A stretch of DNA of 64,000 nucleotides. Source: Actinopolymorpha cephalotaxi (GTDB taxonomy: Bacteria > Actinomycetota > Actinomycetes > Propionibacteriales > Actinopolymorphaceae). Under the pieces are notes generated by a model. The model was given only the letters and a program-made list of their open reading frames with translations. It was not told the origin of the DNA and ran no database searches. The position numbers were made by a program, and so were the translations under genes. The stretch spans positions 186,001 through 250,000 of the forward strand of contig NZ_JACBZA010000001.1 of NCBI RefSeq assembly GCF_013408535.1. Reading direction: 5' to 3'. Position 1 is the first letter of the stretch, and each line of letters starts with the position of its first letter. This document shows positions 37,694 through 45,018 of this stretch, piece by piece.

Positions 37694-39873
37694 TGGCCGG
37701 TATGACTGACGCCGCCCGGCCCGCCGACGACCAGCAGCCCGCGACCTCCGCGTCCCCCGAAACCTCCGGGTCAGGGGAGGAGGCCGCCGACCCGTACCTC
37801 TGGCTGGAGGACGTCACCGGCGAGGAGGCGCTGGCCTGGGTGCGCGAGCGCAACGACGAGACCCTTGCCGGCCTCGCCACCGGGCAGCGGTTCGAGGAGT
37901 TGCGTACGCAGATCCGGGAGGTGCTCGACTCCGACGACCGGATCCCCTACGTCGCCCGCCGCGGCGGCCTGCTCTACAACTTCTGGCAGGACGCCGAACA
38001 CCCGCGCGGCCTGTGGCGTCGGACCACCCTGGAGTCCTACCGCACCGACCACCCCGAGTGGGAGGTGCTCCTCGACGTCGACCGGCTCGCCGCCGACGAG
38101 GGCGAGAGCTGGGTGTGGAAGGGTGCGCCGGTGCTGCGCCCCGAGCTGCGGCTGGCGCTGGTGGAGCTGTCCCGTGGCGGCGCGGACGCGACCGTCGTCC
38201 GCGAGTACGACCTGCAGACCCGCACGTTCGTCGAGGGCGGGTTCGAGCTGCCCGAGGCGAAGAGCTTCGTCGGCTGGATCGACGCCGACCGCATCTACGT
38301 CGGCACCGACTTCGGGCCGGGTTCGCTGACCTCGTCCGGCTATCCCCGCGTCGTGAAGGAATGGCGGCGCGGCACCCCGCTGGCGGAGGCGGAGACCGTC
38401 TTCGAGGGCAAGCCCGACGACGTGCTGGCCTACGCCGGGCACGACTTTACGGAGGGGTACGAACGCGACTTCGTCCGGCGCCGGATCGAGTTCTACAGCG
38501 GCGAGACCTATCTGCGCACCGGCACCGGCACCGGCGCTGCTGGCGCTGCCGACGCTGCCGACCTGGAGCGGATCGACGTACCCAACGACGCCGAGGTCGA
38601 CGTCGAGCGTGACTGGCTGATGGTCGTCACCCGCACGCCGTGGACGGTCGACGGGACGACCTATCCCGCGGGCGCCCTGCTGGCCGCGCCGTTCGAGGAG
38701 TTCCGGGCGGGCAAGCGCACGTTGACAGTGCTGTTCGAGCCGGACGAGCACACGTCGCTGGTCGGGTCCGCGTGGACCCGCCACCACCTGATCCTCAACA
38801 CGCTCTCGGACGTCAAGAGCCGGCTGGAGGTGCTCACCCCGCCGGCGGCGACCGGTGACGCGGGTGGCGGCGCCGAGACTCAGGGTGTCAACTCCGGCTG
38901 GACACGGCAGCCGCTGTCCGGCGTACCCGAGTTCGGCAGCGTCGGGCAGGTGGGCACCGACCCGCACGACGACGACGAGTTCTTCCTGCAGACCAGCGGC
39001 TACACCGAGCCGGCGACGCTGCGGTACGGCACGGTCGACGGTGACCTCGAACCCGTCAAGCAGGCCCCGGCGATGTTCGGCACCGAAGGCCTTCTGGTGC
39101 GGCAGTTGTTCGCGACCTCCGACGACGGCACCCAGGTGCCGTACTTCGTGGTCGGCCCGGAGCGGCCCGCAGCCGACTCGCCGACCCTGCTCGGCGGCTA
39201 CGGCGGCTTCGAGATCTCCAACCTGCCCGGCTACCAGGCCGCCACCGGGCGGGCCTGGCTGGCCCGCGGTGGTACCTACGTCGTCGCCAACATCCGCGGC
39301 GGCGGGGAGTACGGCCCGCGCTGGCACTGTGCCGCGCTGCGGGAGAACCGCCCGCGTGCCTACGAGGACTTCGCCGCCGTCGCCCGCGACCTGGTGACCC
39401 GCGGCATCACCGAGCCCGCCCGGCTGGGCACCCAGGGCGGCAGCAACGGCGGCCTGCTGATGGGCGTCATGCTCACCCGCTATCCCGAGCTGTTCGGCGC
39501 GATCGTGTGCCAGGTTCCGCTGCTGGACATGAAGCGCTACCACCGGCTGCTGGCCGGGGCCTCGTGGATGGCGGAGTACGGCGACCCCGACGACGAGGGC
39601 GACTGGGCCTTCCTCTCGAAGTACTCGCCCTACCAGAACGTCCGTGCCGGCAAGCCGTACCCGCCCACGCTGTTCATGACCTCGACCCGCGACGACCGGG
39701 TGCACCCCGGGCACGCCCGCAAGATGGTCGCCCGGATGCGCGACCTCGGTTACGACGTGGCGTCGTACGAGAACATCGAGGGCGGCCACGGTGCGGCGGC
39801 CGACAACGAGCAGCTGGCGTTCCGCAACGCACTCTCCTACGAGTTCCTGTGGCGGCAGCTCACGAAGTCCTGA
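37693..39873 (+). CDS. Prolyl oligopeptidase family serine peptidase (S9A)
   Basis: A 726-residue cytoplasmic peptidase cleaving after proline in short peptides. The N-terminal beta-propeller region (about 30-430) starts with DPYLWLEDVTGEEALAWVRERN, a prolyl oligopeptidase signature. The hydrolase domain has S584 in GGSNGGLLMG, the aspartate in TSTRDDRVHP and the histidine in GGHGAAADNEQ. The ATG at 37693 overlaps the TetR stop; an ATG at 37702 is equally possible. It may be read with the TetR gene, though no functional link is evident. A hairpin follows the stop. Confidence 0.9.
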   Translation: MAGMTDAARPADDQQPATSASPETSGSGEEAADPYLWLEDVTGEEALAWVRERNDETLAGLATGQRFEELRTQIREVLDSDDRIPYVARRGGLLYNFWQDAEHPRGLWRRTTLESYRTDHPEWEVLLDVDRLAADEGESWVWKGAPVLRPELRLALVELSRGGADATVVREYDLQTRTFVEGGFELPEAKSFVGWIDADRIYVGTDFGPGSLTSSGYPRVVKEWRRGTPLAEAETVFEGKPDDVLAYAGHDFTEGYERDFVRRRIEFYSGETYLRTGTGTGAAGAADAADLERIDVPNDAEVDVERDWLMVVTRTPWTVDGTTYPAGALLAAPFEEFRAGKRTLTVLFEPDEHTSLVGSAWTRHHLILNTLSDVKSRLEVLTPPAATGDAGGGAETQGVNSGWTRQPLSGVPEFGSVGQVGTDPHDDDEFFLQTSGYTEPATLRYGTVDGDLEPVKQAPAMFGTEGLLVRQLFATSDDGTQVPYFVVGPERPAADSPTLLGGYGGFEISNLPGYQAATGRAWLARGGTYVVANIRGGGEYGPRWHCAALRENRPRAYEDFAAVARDLVTRGITEPARLGTQGGSNGGLLMGVMLTRYPELFGAIVCQVPLLDMKRYHRLLAGASWMAEYGDPDDEGDWAFLSKYSPYQNVRAGKPYPPTLFMTSTRDDRVHPGHARKMVARMRDLGYDVASYENIEGGHGAAADNEQLAFRNALSYEFLWRQLTKS

Positions 39874-39879
39874 CCGGAT

Positions 39880-39918
39880 CGCCGGCGCAAGCTTGGGTTG
39901 ACAGCCACTGCGCCGGCG
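39880..39918. terminator. 10-bp hairpin between convergent genes
   Basis: The arms cgccggcgca and tgcgccggcg are exact complements with a 19-nt loop. It begins 7 bp after the peptidase stop and ends 8 bp before the stop of the convergent LGFP gene, so it may serve both. Confidence 0.6.
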
Positions 39919-39925
39919 CCGTACG

Positions 39926-41311
39926 TCAGCGGCCGTTGGAGGAGAAGTGCTGGTAGTCGGGGTAGGCCCAGCGCGCGCCCCACGGCCAGCCCAGCCCGCG
40001 GAAGGTGCGTTCCACCGGGTCGCCGCGCACGATCATTCCCGGCCGCACGTTGCCACGGTCGAGATAGGTGGCCGAGCCCGGCGGGTAGACCTGGCTCGCC
40101 GTGACGTAGGGGTTCTCGAACGTGTTGAGGTCGATCGCGTTCCCGTAGGAGTGCTGGGACAGCTTGTACGGGTTGCCGGTCACCTTGCGGCAGTTGAACG
40201 CCGAGGTGTTGTCGGCGGCCATCGAGGCCTCGTCGCTGCCGCGGTACTTGTCGACCGGGTAGACCTTGCGGATCACCCACCCGTTGGCGTGGGCGTACCT
40301 GAACACGGTCCGGATCGCGCTCACCACGTCGGCGCGGAGGACGATCCGGCCGAGGTGGTCGTCACCGTTGAAGCTGCGGAACGGCACCGTCATGATGCGC
40401 AGCCCGGACGGCGGCACCGGGCAACCGCTGCGGTAGGTGTAGGGAATGTCCCTCGCTCGAGGGGTGCGTACCGAGGTGGCGAACGACACCCGGATGAAGA
40501 CCCCTCTGCTCCTGTGGATGGCCTGCAGGGACGCGTGCTGGAAGTCCTGCCGGTAGCCGTACGACGTGCCCCGCATGTAGCCGGTGGGTATGCCGATCCA
40601 GGACGCCTCGGCGCCGAGCCGGAGGTACTTCGCCAGGATCGAGCCGCGTACCTCGCGGGCGCCGGTGCTCGGGGAGTACCAGATCTGGCCGCTGGAGAAG
40701 CCGGTCACGCGTACTCCCGGCCGCTTGCCGGCGTGTTCGGAGACGGTCGGAACTCCCATCGAGCCGGCCGAGCCACCCAGGGCGAGATACCGCGCGAGCG
40801 TCGGCCCGTAGACGCTCTGTGCGCCGGTCGCGGAGGTCCAGTAAACCCTGCTGTGGTAGAAGTTCTGCACCCTGGCGCCACGTCCTGAGGTGTACGCCGT
40901 ACTGGTCGGCAGGCCGAGGGCACCGGCCGAGGCGCCGAGGCCGAGGTAGTAGGCGAGGAAGGGCTGGAGCACCTCCCACGCCCCGGTGGCCGGGGAGTAG
41001 TAGATGTGGCCGTTGGCGTAGACGCGGTGGTACCCCTTCGGGACCGCCTCCACCGGCGACGTGGCCGGGCCGAGCACGCCGGCCGGGCCGCCGAGCTGTT
41101 GGTAGCGGGCCTCGATCGCGGCTTCCGGGGTCACCGCCGGACCAGGCGCACTCGCTGCGAGCGCCGAACCCGGCGGCAGGAACAGACCCAGCACACAGGT
41201 GAGGAGCACCAGCAGGATCGGGAGCGTTCCGCGGACCGCCGCCGGACGCCGGCGTTCCGGACGTCTGCTCTCCGCACGTCTGCCGACGGCACGCGTTGTT
41301 TCCTCGTTCAT
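39926..41311 (-). CDS. Secreted LGFP-repeat protein with M15 D,D-carboxypeptidase-like domain
   Basis: A 461-residue exported protein. A basic N-terminus and hydrophobic segment (about 25-52) form a signal peptide or anchor. Four LGFP repeats follow (about 65-270; for example GALGLPTSTAY, GSMGVPTVSEH, WIGIPTGYM), a module that binds cell-wall arabinogalactan or peptidoglycan in mycolata and relatives. The C-terminal domain (about 330-461) is an M15/VanY-like metallopeptidase fold: zinc ligands are expected in SQHSYGNAIDLN and in PDYQHF. It would trim peptidoglycan stem peptides. The ATG at 41311 follows a G-run by 7 nt. A close paralogue lies 970 bp upstream, and a lipoprotein gene lies between them. 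Confidence 0.88.
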   Translation of the reverse strand: MNEETTRAVGRRAESRRPERRRPAAVRGTLPILLVLLTCVLGLFLPPGSALAASAPGPAVTPEAAIEARYQQLGGPAGVLGPATSPVEAVPKGYHRVYANGHIYYSPATGAWEVLQPFLAYYLGLGASAGALGLPTSTAYTSGRGARVQNFYHSRVYWTSATGAQSVYGPTLARYLALGGSAGSMGVPTVSEHAGKRPGVRVTGFSSGQIWYSPSTGAREVRGSILAKYLRLGAEASWIGIPTGYMRGTSYGYRQDFQHASLQAIHRSRGVFIRVSFATSVRTPRARDIPYTYRSGCPVPPSGLRIMTVPFRSFNGDDHLGRIVLRADVVSAIRTVFRYAHANGWVIRKVYPVDKYRGSDEASMAADNTSAFNCRKVTGNPYKLSQHSYGNAIDLNTFENPYVTASQVYPPGSATYLDRGNVRPGMIVRGDPVERTFRGLGWPWGARWAYPDYQHFSSNGR

Positions 41312-41355
41312 CGCCAGTCCCCCCGACGTGCGATGCGGCACCTGGTGTCAGGTGC

Positions 41356-41376
41356 GTGTCATGCGGAGATTGACAC
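41356..41376. promoter_or_regulatory. Operator-like inverted repeat upstream of the LGFP gene
   Basis: GTGTCA and TGACAC are separated by 9 bp, and a third GTGTCA copy lies at 41345-41350. The sites are 34-65 bp before the LGFP gene start, where a regulator could act. Confidence 0.35.
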
Positions 41377-41414
41377 GCCCTGAGCAGGTCGTGCGGCCAA
41401 AGGAGGAAACGCAA

Positions 41415-41454
41415 ACGCGGCGCCGCGACCGGGGTTACTGTCGCGACGCCGCGT
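41415..41454 (-). terminator. Rho-independent terminator after the lipoprotein gene
   Basis: Two 14-bp arms with one mismatch (acgcggcgccgcga and tcgcgacgccgcgt) and a 12-nt loop. On the minus strand the stem is followed by tttgcgttt, a T-rich tail, which is rare in this GC-rich window and supports true termination. Confidence 0.7.
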
Positions 41455-41456
41455 CA

Positions 41457-41507
41457 GGTTGCAGGTCGGCGGGTGTGGCGGGTCAGCGGATGTGGTGGGT
41501 CAGCGGG
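41457..41507. repeat. Three 17-bp tandem repeats over the lipoprotein gene stop
   Basis: Units tgtggtgggtcagcggg, tgtggcgggtcagcgga and a more diverged third. The first holds the true stop codon (41500-41502); the second carries the same tca triplet, so the gene end looks duplicated. Confidence 0.65.
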
Positions 41508-42276
41508 TGAGGAGCGACCTCAGGTAACCGGCGAGGGCGGTGTGGTCGATCTTCGCCTCGCGGGTTCCGCGCTGGACGATGGCCAGGCCGACTCGACGCC
41601 CTTCCTGTACGACGGTCTCGTCCCACCAGCCCGGGGTGGCGCGGGGGCCCTCGTCGTGCCGGGAGTCGAACAGCGTCCGGGCGTCCGGCCGGTCCAGCTT
41701 GGCGACCGTCCTCGCGGTGAGGAGCTTGGCCTTGGCCGACGGTGGGGTGCACTTGGCGAGGATGTCCGCCAGCCCGTCGACGAACCGCGCCGCCGACGCC
41801 TCCGAGCGGTAGTCGAGGACCAGCGCCACCGCGGCCTGGCGCCCGGGAACGCGGTAGGTCTGCTCCAGTGCGTTCGCCGGGACCGGCAGCGGCGGCAGCT
41901 GGTCGACGCCGGGACATCCCAGCGGCACGATCGACGCCGCGACCTCCTTCGGGTCACGCTGGCGGACCGGCTGACCGTTGGAGACGAACCCCTCCTCGGG
42001 AGCGTCCGGCTCGGTGTAGGGCTTGAAGCCCGACCCGAGCCGGTCGGCAGCGGGGAGGTTCTTTCGGGTGAGCGGCCCGGCCGTGGTGGCGGGCGGCGTG
42101 GGCATGGGCGGATCGGCGGCCTTGGCGCGCGCCTGGTCCGCGGCCGCGGTGGGCTTGGCCGTCCTGGTGCCCTCGGCGGCGTTGGTGGTGTCCGTCGCCG
42201 GGGACCCGCAGGCGGCGCAGGCCAGGGCGAGTCCGCCGATGGCCAGGCCGGCGAGGAGTTGTCGGGTTCGCTGCAC
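41500..42276 (-). CDS. Lipoprotein of unknown function
   Basis: A 258-residue exported lipoprotein. The signal peptide LLAGLAIGGLALACAACGSP contains two cysteines that could be the lipidation site. A linker rich in T, A, K and P (about 25-75) leads to a globular domain with two cysteines (LGCPGVDQLPPLP and AKCTPPSAK), which might pair as in extracellular sensor domains; this likeness is weak. The GTG at 42276 lies 3 bp after the stop of the upstream LGFP gene, so it is co-transcribed and probably works at the cell surface with it. It ends in a tandem repeat and a terminator. Confidence 0.75.
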   Translation of the reverse strand: MQRTRQLLAGLAIGGLALACAACGSPATDTTNAAEGTRTAKPTAAADQARAKAADPPMPTPPATTAGPLTRKNLPAADRLGSGFKPYTEPDAPEEGFVSNGQPVRQRDPKEVAASIVPLGCPGVDQLPPLPVPANALEQTYRVPGRQAAVALVLDYRSEASAARFVDGLADILAKCTPPSAKAKLLTARTVAKLDRPDARTLFDSRHDEGPRATPGWWDETVVQEGRRVGLAIVQRGTREAKIDHTALAGYLRSLLTR

Positions 42277-42279
42277 TGC

Positions 42280-44085
42280 TCAGCCGCCGTTCTCGGAGAA
42301 GTGCTGGTAGTCGGGGTAGCTCCAGCGGGCGCCCCACGGCCAGCCCCGGCTTCGCAGCGTGGACTCGACCGGGTCACCGCGAAGGATCATTCCCTTGCGC
42401 TTGTTGCCACGGTTGAGATACGTGTCCGAACCCTCAGGGTAGACGTTGGACGCGGTGACGTACGGATTCTCGTAGGTGTTGATGTCGATGGCATTTCCGT
42501 AAGAATGCTGGGAAAGCTTGTACGGGTTGCCGGTCACCTTGCGGCAGTTGAAGGCCGAGGTGTTGTCGGCGGCCATCGCCTTGATGTCGTCACCCTGGTA
42601 GACGTCGACCGGGTTGACCCGGCGGAACGGCCAGCCGTTGTCGTAGGCCGCGCGGTACATCGCGGTGATGTCGCCGACGACGGTCGAACGCACCACGATC
42701 GTGCCGTACTGGTCGTCGTTGGAGAAGTTCCGGAAGGTCACCTTCAGCATCCGCAGCGACGACGGCCCGACCGGGCAGCCGCTGCGGTAGGTGTAGGGGA
42801 TGTCGGAGGCGCTCGGCGTCCTCGACGTCACCGTGAACGGCATCCGGACATAGGCCTTCTTCGTCGAGGAGTAGTACTTCATCGCGGCGTACTCGAAGCC
42901 CTGCCAGTCGCCGTACGACGTCGGCTTGTGGTAGGTGTTCGGCAGGCCGATCCGAGACGCCTCGGCGCCGATCGAGAGGTAGCGCGCGAGGGTGACGCCG
43001 CGAACCTCACGGGCACCGGTCGTGCTGGAGTACCAGATTCGGCCATTCCTGAAAACGGTGACCCGGGAGCCCGCCTTCTTGCCGGCCTTCTCGGCCACGG
43101 TGGGCAGGCCGAGGACGCCGCTCGATCCGCCGAGCTGGAGGTAGCGGGTGAGGGTCGCGCCGTAGACGCCCTGCGCGCCGGTGGTCCCGGAGTGGTAGAC
43201 CCGGCCCTTGACGAAGTTCTGCACGGTGACGCCGCCCGGCGCCGAGTAGGCCGCGCCGGTGGGCAGACCCAGCGGGCTTCCCGAACCGCCGAGCTTGACG
43301 AAGTAGGCCTCCATCACGCCGGTCAGGTCCCATGCGCCGGTCGACGACGACCAGTAGATGCGGCCGTGTTCGAACGCGCTGAGCCGGGCGCCGGCGGGCT
43401 GCGCCGACCCCTCGCCGTGGGTGGGCAGGCCGAGCTTGCCGGCCTCGCCGCCGAGGGCGAGGTAGCGCGCCAGCAGCGGGCCGTAGACGCCGCGTGCGCC
43501 GGTGGCCGCGGAGTAGTAGATGCGTCCGCCGGTGAAGCGCTGGACCAGGGCTCCCGCCGTCGCACCGGCATACTGCGCGCCGGTCGGGAAGCCGAGCTTG
43601 CTCTGCTGGGCGCCCAGGTAGTCGTAGTAGTTCTGCATCGGGCCGGTGCGGACGTCCCAGGCGCCGGTCGAGTCGGAGTAGTAGATGCTGCCGTGCTCGA
43701 ACCTGCGGACGTAGCCACCGGTGACGGCGGTGACCGCCGAGGTGGCGGCGCCAAGGACGCCGGTGCTCCCGCCGAGTGTCTGGTAGCGGGCCTCGATCGC
43801 GGCGGCGGCGTCGGCCGCGGTCGCGGTCGCGGGATCCTTCGGCGCGGGCTGCTTGTCGGCGGTGGGGGTGGGCGTGGGCGTCGGGGTGGCGGTGCCGGTG
43901 GGGTCCGGCGTCGGGGCGGCGGTCGGTGTCGGCGATGCGGTGGGGGTTGCGGTCGGCGTCGGTGTCGGCGCGACGGGTGTCGCGCCTGCCGACGGCGCGA
44001 GTACGCCTGCTCCGACCAGGACCGCACCGGTGAGTGCGGCCACCGCCTTGGCGTGCAGCCGCGCTCGGACGCGAACGGCGTTCAT
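42280..44085 (-). CDS. Secreted LGFP-repeat protein with M15 D,D-carboxypeptidase-like domain, long form
   Basis: A 601-residue paralogue of the protein encoded at 39926-41311. A signal peptide (about 1-35) is followed by a Thr-Pro linker of about 50 residues, six LGFP repeats (about 100-420; KLGFPTGAQ, KLGLPTHGE, PLGLPTGAA, GVLGLPTVAE and others) and an M15-like domain. The segment DNTSAFNCRKVTGNPYKLSQ and the following HSYGNAID is identical in both proteins, and the ends are near-identical, which shows recent duplication of the catalytic part with two extra wall-binding repeats here. The ATG at 44085 has AAGGGGAG close upstream. It is the first gene of an operon with the lipoprotein. Confidence 0.9.
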   Translation of the reverse strand: MNAVRVRARLHAKAVAALTGAVLVGAGVLAPSAGATPVAPTPTPTATPTASPTPTAAPTPDPTGTATPTPTPTPTADKQPAPKDPATATAADAAAAIEARYQTLGGSTGVLGAATSAVTAVTGGYVRRFEHGSIYYSDSTGAWDVRTGPMQNYYDYLGAQQSKLGFPTGAQYAGATAGALVQRFTGGRIYYSAATGARGVYGPLLARYLALGGEAGKLGLPTHGEGSAQPAGARLSAFEHGRIYWSSSTGAWDLTGVMEAYFVKLGGSGSPLGLPTGAAYSAPGGVTVQNFVKGRVYHSGTTGAQGVYGATLTRYLQLGGSSGVLGLPTVAEKAGKKAGSRVTVFRNGRIWYSSTTGAREVRGVTLARYLSIGAEASRIGLPNTYHKPTSYGDWQGFEYAAMKYYSSTKKAYVRMPFTVTSRTPSASDIPYTYRSGCPVGPSSLRMLKVTFRNFSNDDQYGTIVVRSTVVGDITAMYRAAYDNGWPFRRVNPVDVYQGDDIKAMAADNTSAFNCRKVTGNPYKLSQHSYGNAIDINTYENPYVTASNVYPEGSDTYLNRGNKRKGMILRGDPVESTLRSRGWPWGARWSYPDYQHFSENGG

Positions 44086-44285
44086 GTGCTCCCCTTCACC
44101 AGATCTCGTCAGGCCGCGCCCGAAACCGGCGGACCCCAGGAGGGCAGGTGCGCACACCGGCCCGGTCGTGCAAGGTAGTACTCCCGGGCCGCGAAGATCG
44201 TTGCGTGCGAGTGGCGTTCTCCGGTGGAAGAACTCGCGGCGGCTTGGGGGATGTGGAGTCTAGCGCCCAGGTCCGACACGTGCCG

Positions 44286-44305
44286 GATTCTTCCGCGGAA
44301 GAATC
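44286..44305. promoter_or_regulatory. Perfect 20-bp palindrome before the DUF402 gene
   Basis: The sequence gattcttccgcggaagaatc is a perfect palindrome ending just before the ribosome-binding site of the DUF402 gene. A degraded copy (13 of 16 bases of its core) lies at 44218-44233, about 70 bp upstream. The two are in the divergent region shared with the LGFP operon and may bind a dimeric regulator. Confidence 0.55.
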
Positions 44306-44319
44306 GGAGGACTGATCCG

Positions 44320-45018
44320 ATGCCTTTCCAGCACACCTCTGACACCTCTGACTCCCCTGACGCCTGGCGGCCGGGAACACCGCTGGTCGTCGAGGAACGC
44401 TGGCGCGACCAGCTGTGGAGTGCCGTGCCGCACGTGGTCGTCGAGGACGGCGACTGGTGCGTCACCCACGTTCCCGCCGGTACGACCGCGACCTACGCGA
44501 GCAGTGTCGGCGTCCCCGGGCGCGAGGACGTCTCGCGTTCGGAGTGCAAGCTGCTCGCGATGGAAACCCTTGTGTACAAGGTCGTCGAGCGATCGATCGA
44601 CCTGAGCACACTGCACTTCTTCGCACCGGACACCTGGGCGCGGGTCATCCTCGTGTGGACCGCGACGGGGGAGTTTCGCGGGTGGTACGTCAACCTGGAG
44701 CTCCCGCCGACGCGGACGGCCGACGGCATCCAGACGATGGACCTCGTGCTCGACGTGCAGGTACGCCCGGACGGCTCGTGGGCCTGGAAAGACCGCGAGG
44801 ACTTCGACGAGGCGGTCCGCCGGGGTGTGCTCGACCGCGAACTGCTCGGCACCCTGGAAGACCACGCGCACGCCGTGCTGGCGCATGCGAAGGCTCGCAC
44901 CGGTCCGTTCGAGGCGAGGTGGCTGCACTGGCGACCGGACCCGGCGTGGCCATTCCCGGCCCTCCCGCCTGCCTACCGGCCGGACGGATCGGCGTGGTCC
45001 GCCCGGCCACCGGTCTGA
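44320..45018 (+). CDS. DUF402 domain protein (FomD/YgaC-like)
   Basis: A 232-residue cytoplasmic protein. The core (about 90-190) has DUF402 hallmarks: FRGWYVNLELPPTRTADGIQTMDLVLDVQVRPDGSWAWKDREDFDEA, with the acidic residues D-D-E that bind a metal in FomD-like nucleotide phosphohydrolases. The reaction is therefore probably hydrolysis of a nucleoside di- or triphosphate or a nucleotidyl intermediate; the substrate is unknown. The ATG at 44320 has GGAGG 9 nt upstream. A 20-bp palindrome lies in the promoter region, and the gene is divergent from the LGFP operon. Confidence 0.82.
   Translation: MPFQHTSDTSDSPDAWRPGTPLVVEERWRDQLWSAVPHVVVEDGDWCVTHVPAGTTATYASSVGVPGREDVSRSECKLLAMETLVYKVVERSIDLSTLHFFAPDTWARVILVWTATGEFRGWYVNLELPPTRTADGIQTMDLVLDVQVRPDGSWAWKDREDFDEAVRRGVLDRELLGTLEDHAHAVLAHAKARTGPFEARWLHWRPDPAWPFPALPPAYRPDGSAWSARPPV

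Follow-up and report, generated by a model that had tools for sequence, protein, structure and literature searches.

A conserved M15 peptidase-lipoprotein gene pair and a duplicated peptidase gene in Actinopolymorpha cephalotaxi

Secreted enzymes that cut the cell wall need to be kept in check, and few of them have known dedicated partners. The closest described proteins to the system considered here each match one part of it. In the mycoloyltransferase MytA, LGFP motifs are reported to alternate in the side of the stalk on which they lie (PMC11299179), while the account of the PknH extracellular domain describes two disulphides and a V-shaped cleft that is thought to bind a small ligand, and places PknH-like domains in the lipoproteins LpqQ, LprH, LppH and LpqA (PMC4118811). 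Here, we analyze a stretch of 64,000 nt of Actinopolymorpha cephalotaxi (Propionibacteriales) DNA from contig NZ_JACBZA010000001.1, hereafter the window, to which all coordinates refer. Three genes on its minus strand, in the order C, B, A, encode two secreted M15 peptidases with LGFP repeats (C and A) and, between them, a lipoprotein (B). On balance, we read C and B as a conserved two-gene unit, formed by a secreted LGFP-stalked endopeptidase and a lipoprotein partner, and A as a duplicate of the enzyme. The initial annotation had described two secreted LGFP/M15 paralogues flanking a lipoprotein, and all three genes lie where it placed them; it saw a real module, but its emphasis was misplaced, as the unusual part is the tight and old pairing of the M15 gene with the lipoprotein gene.

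Pairing of the M15 and lipoprotein genes across genomes

In a sample of 57 genomes from the order, the lipoprotein is found by search in 28, and in one more (G055) by position and profile. In 28 of the 29, the lipoprotein gene is the next one 3′ of an M15 gene and has the same orientation, while in G003 it precedes the M15 gene. The two genes are closely spaced: 17 of 27 measured pairs overlap by 4 nt and four are separated by a 3-nt gap, including that of the window, where the GTG start codon of B lies 3 nt past the stop of C; the remaining pairs range from a 40-nt overlap, in which the start is uncertain, to an 84-nt gap. The lipoprotein profile was built on start-trimmed sequences and checked by leaving one member out at a time, which returned G055 at E 6e-12 and the other 28 members at E 2.2e-27 or better. 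Two members (L077 and L081) fell outside the lipobox pattern and were added by homology, and a weak second match in G005 was dropped.

A class-wide sample of 197 genomes extends this pairing. Strong lipoprotein matches (E <1e-21) occur in 13 genomes, and 12 of them lie directly behind an M15 gene and are read in the same direction, the thirteenth (G097) being at a contig end. Of 43 class genomes with any match, we dropped 30 that had only weak ones (best E 4e-6), nearly all starting in the signal peptide; that of G149 covers model positions 163-250. The pairs span ten family handles (f1, f2, f3, f5, f12, f16, f28, f30, f36 and f41). We take f3 to resemble Kribbella and f4 to resemble Nocardioidaceae. 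No such lipoprotein was found beside the 26 M15 genes of f4. Six lipobox-like neighbors of f4 genes (L106, L108, L110, L113, L114 and L124) were excluded manually, and of these L113 and L124 were read and look unrelated. A capsule-type PGA_cap (CapA-like) domain is fused to M15, joining it to a wall peptidase in one chain, in lipoprotein-free proteins of f4 (L104) and f2 (L105) by Pfam, and in L102 by eye.

The linked M15 genes also group by the phylogeny of the peptidase domain. A tree built from 71 M15 domains places those with a linked lipoprotein, together with the copies of A, on one side of a branch with an SH-aLRT support of 98. We enlarged this tree with 20 further class-wide M15 domains that lack a lipoprotein match, selected among the strongest, and in the resulting tree of 91 domains a clade of 46 (SH-aLRT 93) holds all 44 linked rows, copies of A being counted as linked. 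Eighteen of the added domains lie outside this clade and two (L250 and L251) inside it, where L250 has just 105 nt of contig behind it, so that its neighbor is untestable. Among the strong class-wide matches, wherever the neighbor can be tested, a lipoprotein family without a Pfam match stands beside one M15 clade, which makes it a concrete candidate for a dedicated partner.

These observations bear on whether B could be a passive neighbor, a general envelope lipoprotein simply carried along with the M15 gene. Many M15 genes have no such lipoprotein, and an interaction between B and C is deduced from their linkage, as is a role of B as partner or regulator of the enzyme. However, all 12 testable class-wide cases are adjacent in a single orientation, and the frequent 4-nt overlaps, the single M15 clade and the ten family handles render a passive neighbor highly improbable. 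The initial annotation placed the lipoprotein between the two paralogues, as a possible partner or sensor. Two conditions by which that annotation would have fallen, M15 domains without zinc ligands and a lipoprotein not conserved with them, were both checked, and neither holds. Conservation of the lipoprotein beside an M15 gene is borne out in relatives, but a part shared between two paralogues is not supported: it neighbors one M15 gene, from the downstream side, and often no second paralogue adjoins; the conserved unit is C-B, not A-B-C. Separately, neither M15 nor lipoprotein gives a match in G048 and G050, which share genus handle g5 with 16 pair-bearing genomes, and this joint absence fits a functional pair.

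The M15 domains and their probable specificity

Both peptidases match PF13539 (Peptidase_M15_4) at E 1.6e-17, with 64 bits against a curated cut-off of 25. Their catalytic domains had been called near-identical, which overstates the case: they are 65% identical over 206 residues, and A and C agree fully in a core of 31 residues that surrounds the first two zinc ligands. We aligned 60 M15 domains from 46 of the 57 genomes searched. All 60, A and C included, have the zinc ligands H133, D140 and H201, the acid D198, and R121 (alignment numbering). Two cysteines, C43 and C120 in the same numbering, are invariant as well.

The Pfam name suggests that A and C are D,D-carboxypeptidases, which would trim stem peptides rather than cut them, and the third match of a profile search against the PDB, the putative carboxypeptidase YodJ (E 0.06), agrees with this label. 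The two closest solved relatives in that search are instead Ply500 (2vo9, E 5e-6) and LysB4 (6akv, E 8e-5), and the fold comparison of the C model returns the same pair (2vo9 with Z 6.4 and 6akv with Z 6.3, where the next row, an unrelated one, has 4.7). In the M15 part of this model, ten-residue means of pLDDT are 82-97, with the last block at 63. The Asp-Tyr-x-His-Phe signature likewise fits Ply500 and LysB4 best, and the Ply500 entry is named L-alanyl-D-glutamate peptidase. Profile and fold together favor, rather than prove, an endopeptidase of the L-Ala-D-Glu type, and we regard a carboxypeptidase as unlikely. C would then be a zinc endopeptidase of the same type as Ply500 and LysB4, secreted and most likely cleaving the stem peptides of peptidoglycan at an L-Ala-D-Glu type bond.

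Related domains are also present in viral contigs, where L132-L140 encode M15 domains 32-39% identical to that of C. A total of 84 viral M15 relatives were found and 80 kept, six of which served solely to deepen the alignment for structure prediction. A pattern scan for viral relatives of the lipoprotein was abandoned, as the lipoprotein alignment is too variable.

LGFP repeats, gene A and the B-A spacer

Pfam (PF08310) recognizes LGFP repeats of about 54 residues in three stretches of A (E 5e-35) and five of C (E 5e-56), and these eight matches are the only ones above the cut-off in the 6.86-Mb genome. Our own profile adds a degenerate last repeat to each protein, so that the counts of four and six in the initial annotation are right once this copy is included; the difference in linker length that it noted also holds, a long Pro/Thr linker being present in C only (Table 1). 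For the architecture expected of LGFP, a helix with a sheet of three to four strands in a stalk, the C model matches the LGFP domain of MytA (6swz) with Z 10.7, is fair in its first repeat (pLDDT of 64-81) and stays under 50 in the other five. This N-terminal stalk probably anchors the enzyme to the wall.

Table 1. Features of the locus in window coordinates
Feature	Position	Strand	Description
Gene C	42280-44085	-	601 aa: signal peptide (by eye), Pro/Thr linker, six LGFP repeats, M15 peptidase domain
LGFP repeats of C, six (sixth degenerate)	42844-43800	-	Residues 96-414; Pfam, own profile, MytA fold match
M15 domain of C	42283-42843	-	Residues 415-601; zinc ligands H527, D534, H595; acid D592
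Gene B	41500-42276	-	Lipoprotein, 258 aa, GTG start, no Pfam family
Terminator-like hairpin between B and A	~41410-41460 (approximate)	-	Folding energy compared with shuffles
Palindrome GTGTCA-N9-TGACAC, upstream of A	41356-41376	.	Operator-like
Gene A	39926-41311	-	461 aa: signal peptide (by eye), four LGFP repeats, M15 domain
LGFP repeats of A, four	40490-41119	-	Residues 65-274; likeliest equivalents C1, C4, C5, C6
M15 domain of A	39929-40489	-	Zinc ligands H387, D394, H455; acid D452

A reach model, following the initial annotation, would have A and C act at different wall depths according to how many repeats each has, with B working for the two of them. The counts are kept in all four genomes that have both copies, and dN/dS of A, B and C among four genomes is 0.12-0.45, so that neither A nor C looks to be decaying; a description of the MytA LGFP domains as a stalk (PMC11299179) is compatible with such a ruler. 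However, repeat number does not track the paralogue. In G005, the only M15 protein, with the lipoprotein gene next in line, has four repeats, whereas the A-type protein of G003 retains six. Outside the genus, only three of 34 linked M15 proteins have LGFP repeats by our own profile and 31 have none, and a hairpin divides A from B. A division of labor by reach is therefore quite unlikely in our judgment.

Variation among these enzymes lies in the neck. Within the genus, 10 of 10 linked-clade M15 proteins carry LGFP repeats by our profile. The three bearers outside the genus, on which Pfam and our profile agree, are two proteins of f12, each having five repeats, and that of G038 (f2), where the match is weak. 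Pfam scans of individually named linked proteins reveal Big_9/cadherin-like necks in place of LGFP in L214, L215 and L218, and nothing but M15 above the cut-off in L082, L085, L099, L101, L103, L216, L217, L220 and L222; together with A, C and the three bearers outside the genus, these are the linked proteins that the Pfam scans cover. The LGFP stalk is thus one among several necks, and their exchange between relatives turns the idea of a ruler into a question of domain swapping.

The repeats also record something of the history of A. A comparison with C by itself gives no clear counterpart for the second repeat of A (47-50%), but repeats 2 and 3 of A match the fourth and fifth of the A-type protein of G003 (75% and 77%), which indicates that A is without repeats 2-3. 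In the G005 protein, the second repeat is 51% like C4 and at most 42% like the others, and repeats 2-3 are most likely missing there too. Within C, the repeats loosely alternate in likeness, with C1, C3 and C5 at 46-50%, C2 and C4 at 52%, and odd against even repeats at 39-46% (the degenerate sixth left out), and so a loss of two preserves the alternation. Given the alternating sides of the MytA stalk, loss of repeats in pairs would be structurally sensible. In essence, A would stem from a duplication of the ancestor that it shares with C, placed at the base of the genus or close to it, and is without two LGFP repeats, probably by loss.

The spacer between B and A suggests that the duplicate is expressed apart from the pair. 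It contains a hairpin with a long G+C-rich stem and a T-rich tail, whose arms are largely conserved in four genomes; an 81-nt stretch folds at -39.4 kcal/mol (z -4.2), equaled by one of 200 shuffles. A scan of 39800-44400 for consensus promoters and terminators returned nothing and did not flag the hairpin. The arms of the neighboring palindrome are exact in all four A-bearing genomes, and the genome holds five such sites, against none for a reversed control. Within the window, matches with up to two mismatches number six, barely above the shuffles (mean 2.3, with five of 100 reaching six). The palindrome was also considered as the mark of a regulon and set aside, as the other four sites, screened crudely by codon bias, marked no coherent gene set and at least two of them lie inside candidate reading frames. 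From the conserved hairpin and palindrome, C-B and A are probably on separate transcripts, with A probably transcribed alone.

The lipoprotein and the pair in relation to known systems

By eye, B has a signal peptide and a lipobox-like Cys. This residue, C23, is the likely lipidation site and is shared by all 29 lipoproteins that were aligned, in which the only other invariant cysteines are C121 and C176; the latter two may, at a guess, form a disulphide. No Pfam family is matched by B. It may be that B is a sensor lipoprotein with a fold like that of PknH_C, binding a small ligand such as a wall fragment and thereby gating the enzyme. With the limit set at E 10, PknH_C (PF14032) matches five of 29 members, the best being E 0.0023, and in L107 the match spans residues 168-206. 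When 15 PF14032 relatives are compared with the B profile (hhalign), the probability is 59% across 66 columns, where two unrelated control profiles give 0.4% and 0.1%. Domains of this kind do occur in lipoproteins and have a cleft thought to be ligand-binding (PMC4118811). All of the sequence scores, however, are under the curated cut-off, the one match displayed in full having 17.3 bits where 27 are required. The B of the window has no match even at E 10, just one of ten members scanned singly matched at E up to 1, and a PF14032 search of 60 genomes found nothing in the genome of the window. Moreover, B has only two invariant cysteines besides C23, and its model is too poor for a fold comparison. 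The likeness to PknH_C is a lead only, and such a sensor is a possibility that we regard as doubtful.

Our preferred reading is that of an enzyme with a lipoprotein partner. In this mechanism, B is probably translated from one message with C and tethered to the membrane on its outer side. Its most likely action there is to bind either C or what C cuts, and thereby to hold the enzyme back, position it or switch it on. Several points weigh against this reading. M15 occurs in 86 of the 197 class genomes, compared with the 13 that have a strong lipoprotein match, and none of the 20 further class-wide M15 genes has the lipoprotein beside it. L251, a second copy in G122, falls in the linked clade yet has no lipoprotein beside it and is a true exception, and both trees are quick searches with SH-aLRT support only. 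The lipobox pattern recognized the start in five of 11 class-wide lipoprotein genes outside the genome of the window and missed it in six, where lipidation is accordingly unproven. The AlphaFold model of B, built from two sequences, is poor (pLDDT 46.8), and fold searches with it found nothing (Foldseek best E 0.88, VIA best Z 3.0); PknH is not among the rows shown for B, which is uninformative either way. In the C model, LGFP repeats 2-6 have a pLDDT below 50. Finally, the analysis shows gene order, domains, catalytic residues, linkage, clade structure and low dN/dS, whereas the partnership of B with C and any action of B, the peptidase activity and its bond specificity, the wall binding and the transcripts are what we infer from sequence.

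Literature searches, judged from titles and the beginnings of abstracts, returned no description of an M15-lipoprotein pair. It is hypothesized, tentatively and with less confidence than the partner reading above, that the two genes represent an undescribed actinobacterial system for the control of wall hydrolases, in which a secreted M15 endopeptidase is gated by the membrane-anchored lipoprotein, itself perhaps a sensor of the PknH_C kind. The N-terminal neck of the enzyme, be it LGFP, an Ig/cadherin-like module or no more than a linker, would be freely swapped to fit each wall.

Each part of the pair has a described counterpart. B is weakly similar to the PknH-like lipoproteins LpqQ, LprH, LppH and LpqA in a strand-helix-Cys segment, but its PknH_C scores stay below thresholds. 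The stalk of C is built from the same repeat as MytA/PS1 of Corynebacterium glutamicum (6swz, 6sx4), both by sequence (phmmer E 1e-27) and by fold (Z 10.7). Unlike the host of MytA, Actinopolymorpha presumably has no mycolates. In MytA, the catalytic part is described as a mycoloyltransferase and the repeats number five (PMC11299179), whereas here the repeats precede a peptidase. The LysA endolysins of Gordonia phages likewise join a wall hydrolase to LGFP, but in their description LGFP lies behind an amidase, and M15 is found in other LysA proteins (PMC9671378). The phage endolysins Ply500 and LysB4 (2vo9, 6akv) share with A and C the M15 fold and the His...Asp plus Asp-Tyr-x-His zinc and acid signature. 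The invariant C43 and C120 may be a difference from Ply500. In contrast to these endolysins, the enzyme here is a chromosomally encoded, secreted protein with an N-terminal LGFP stalk and a lipoprotein as its neighbor.

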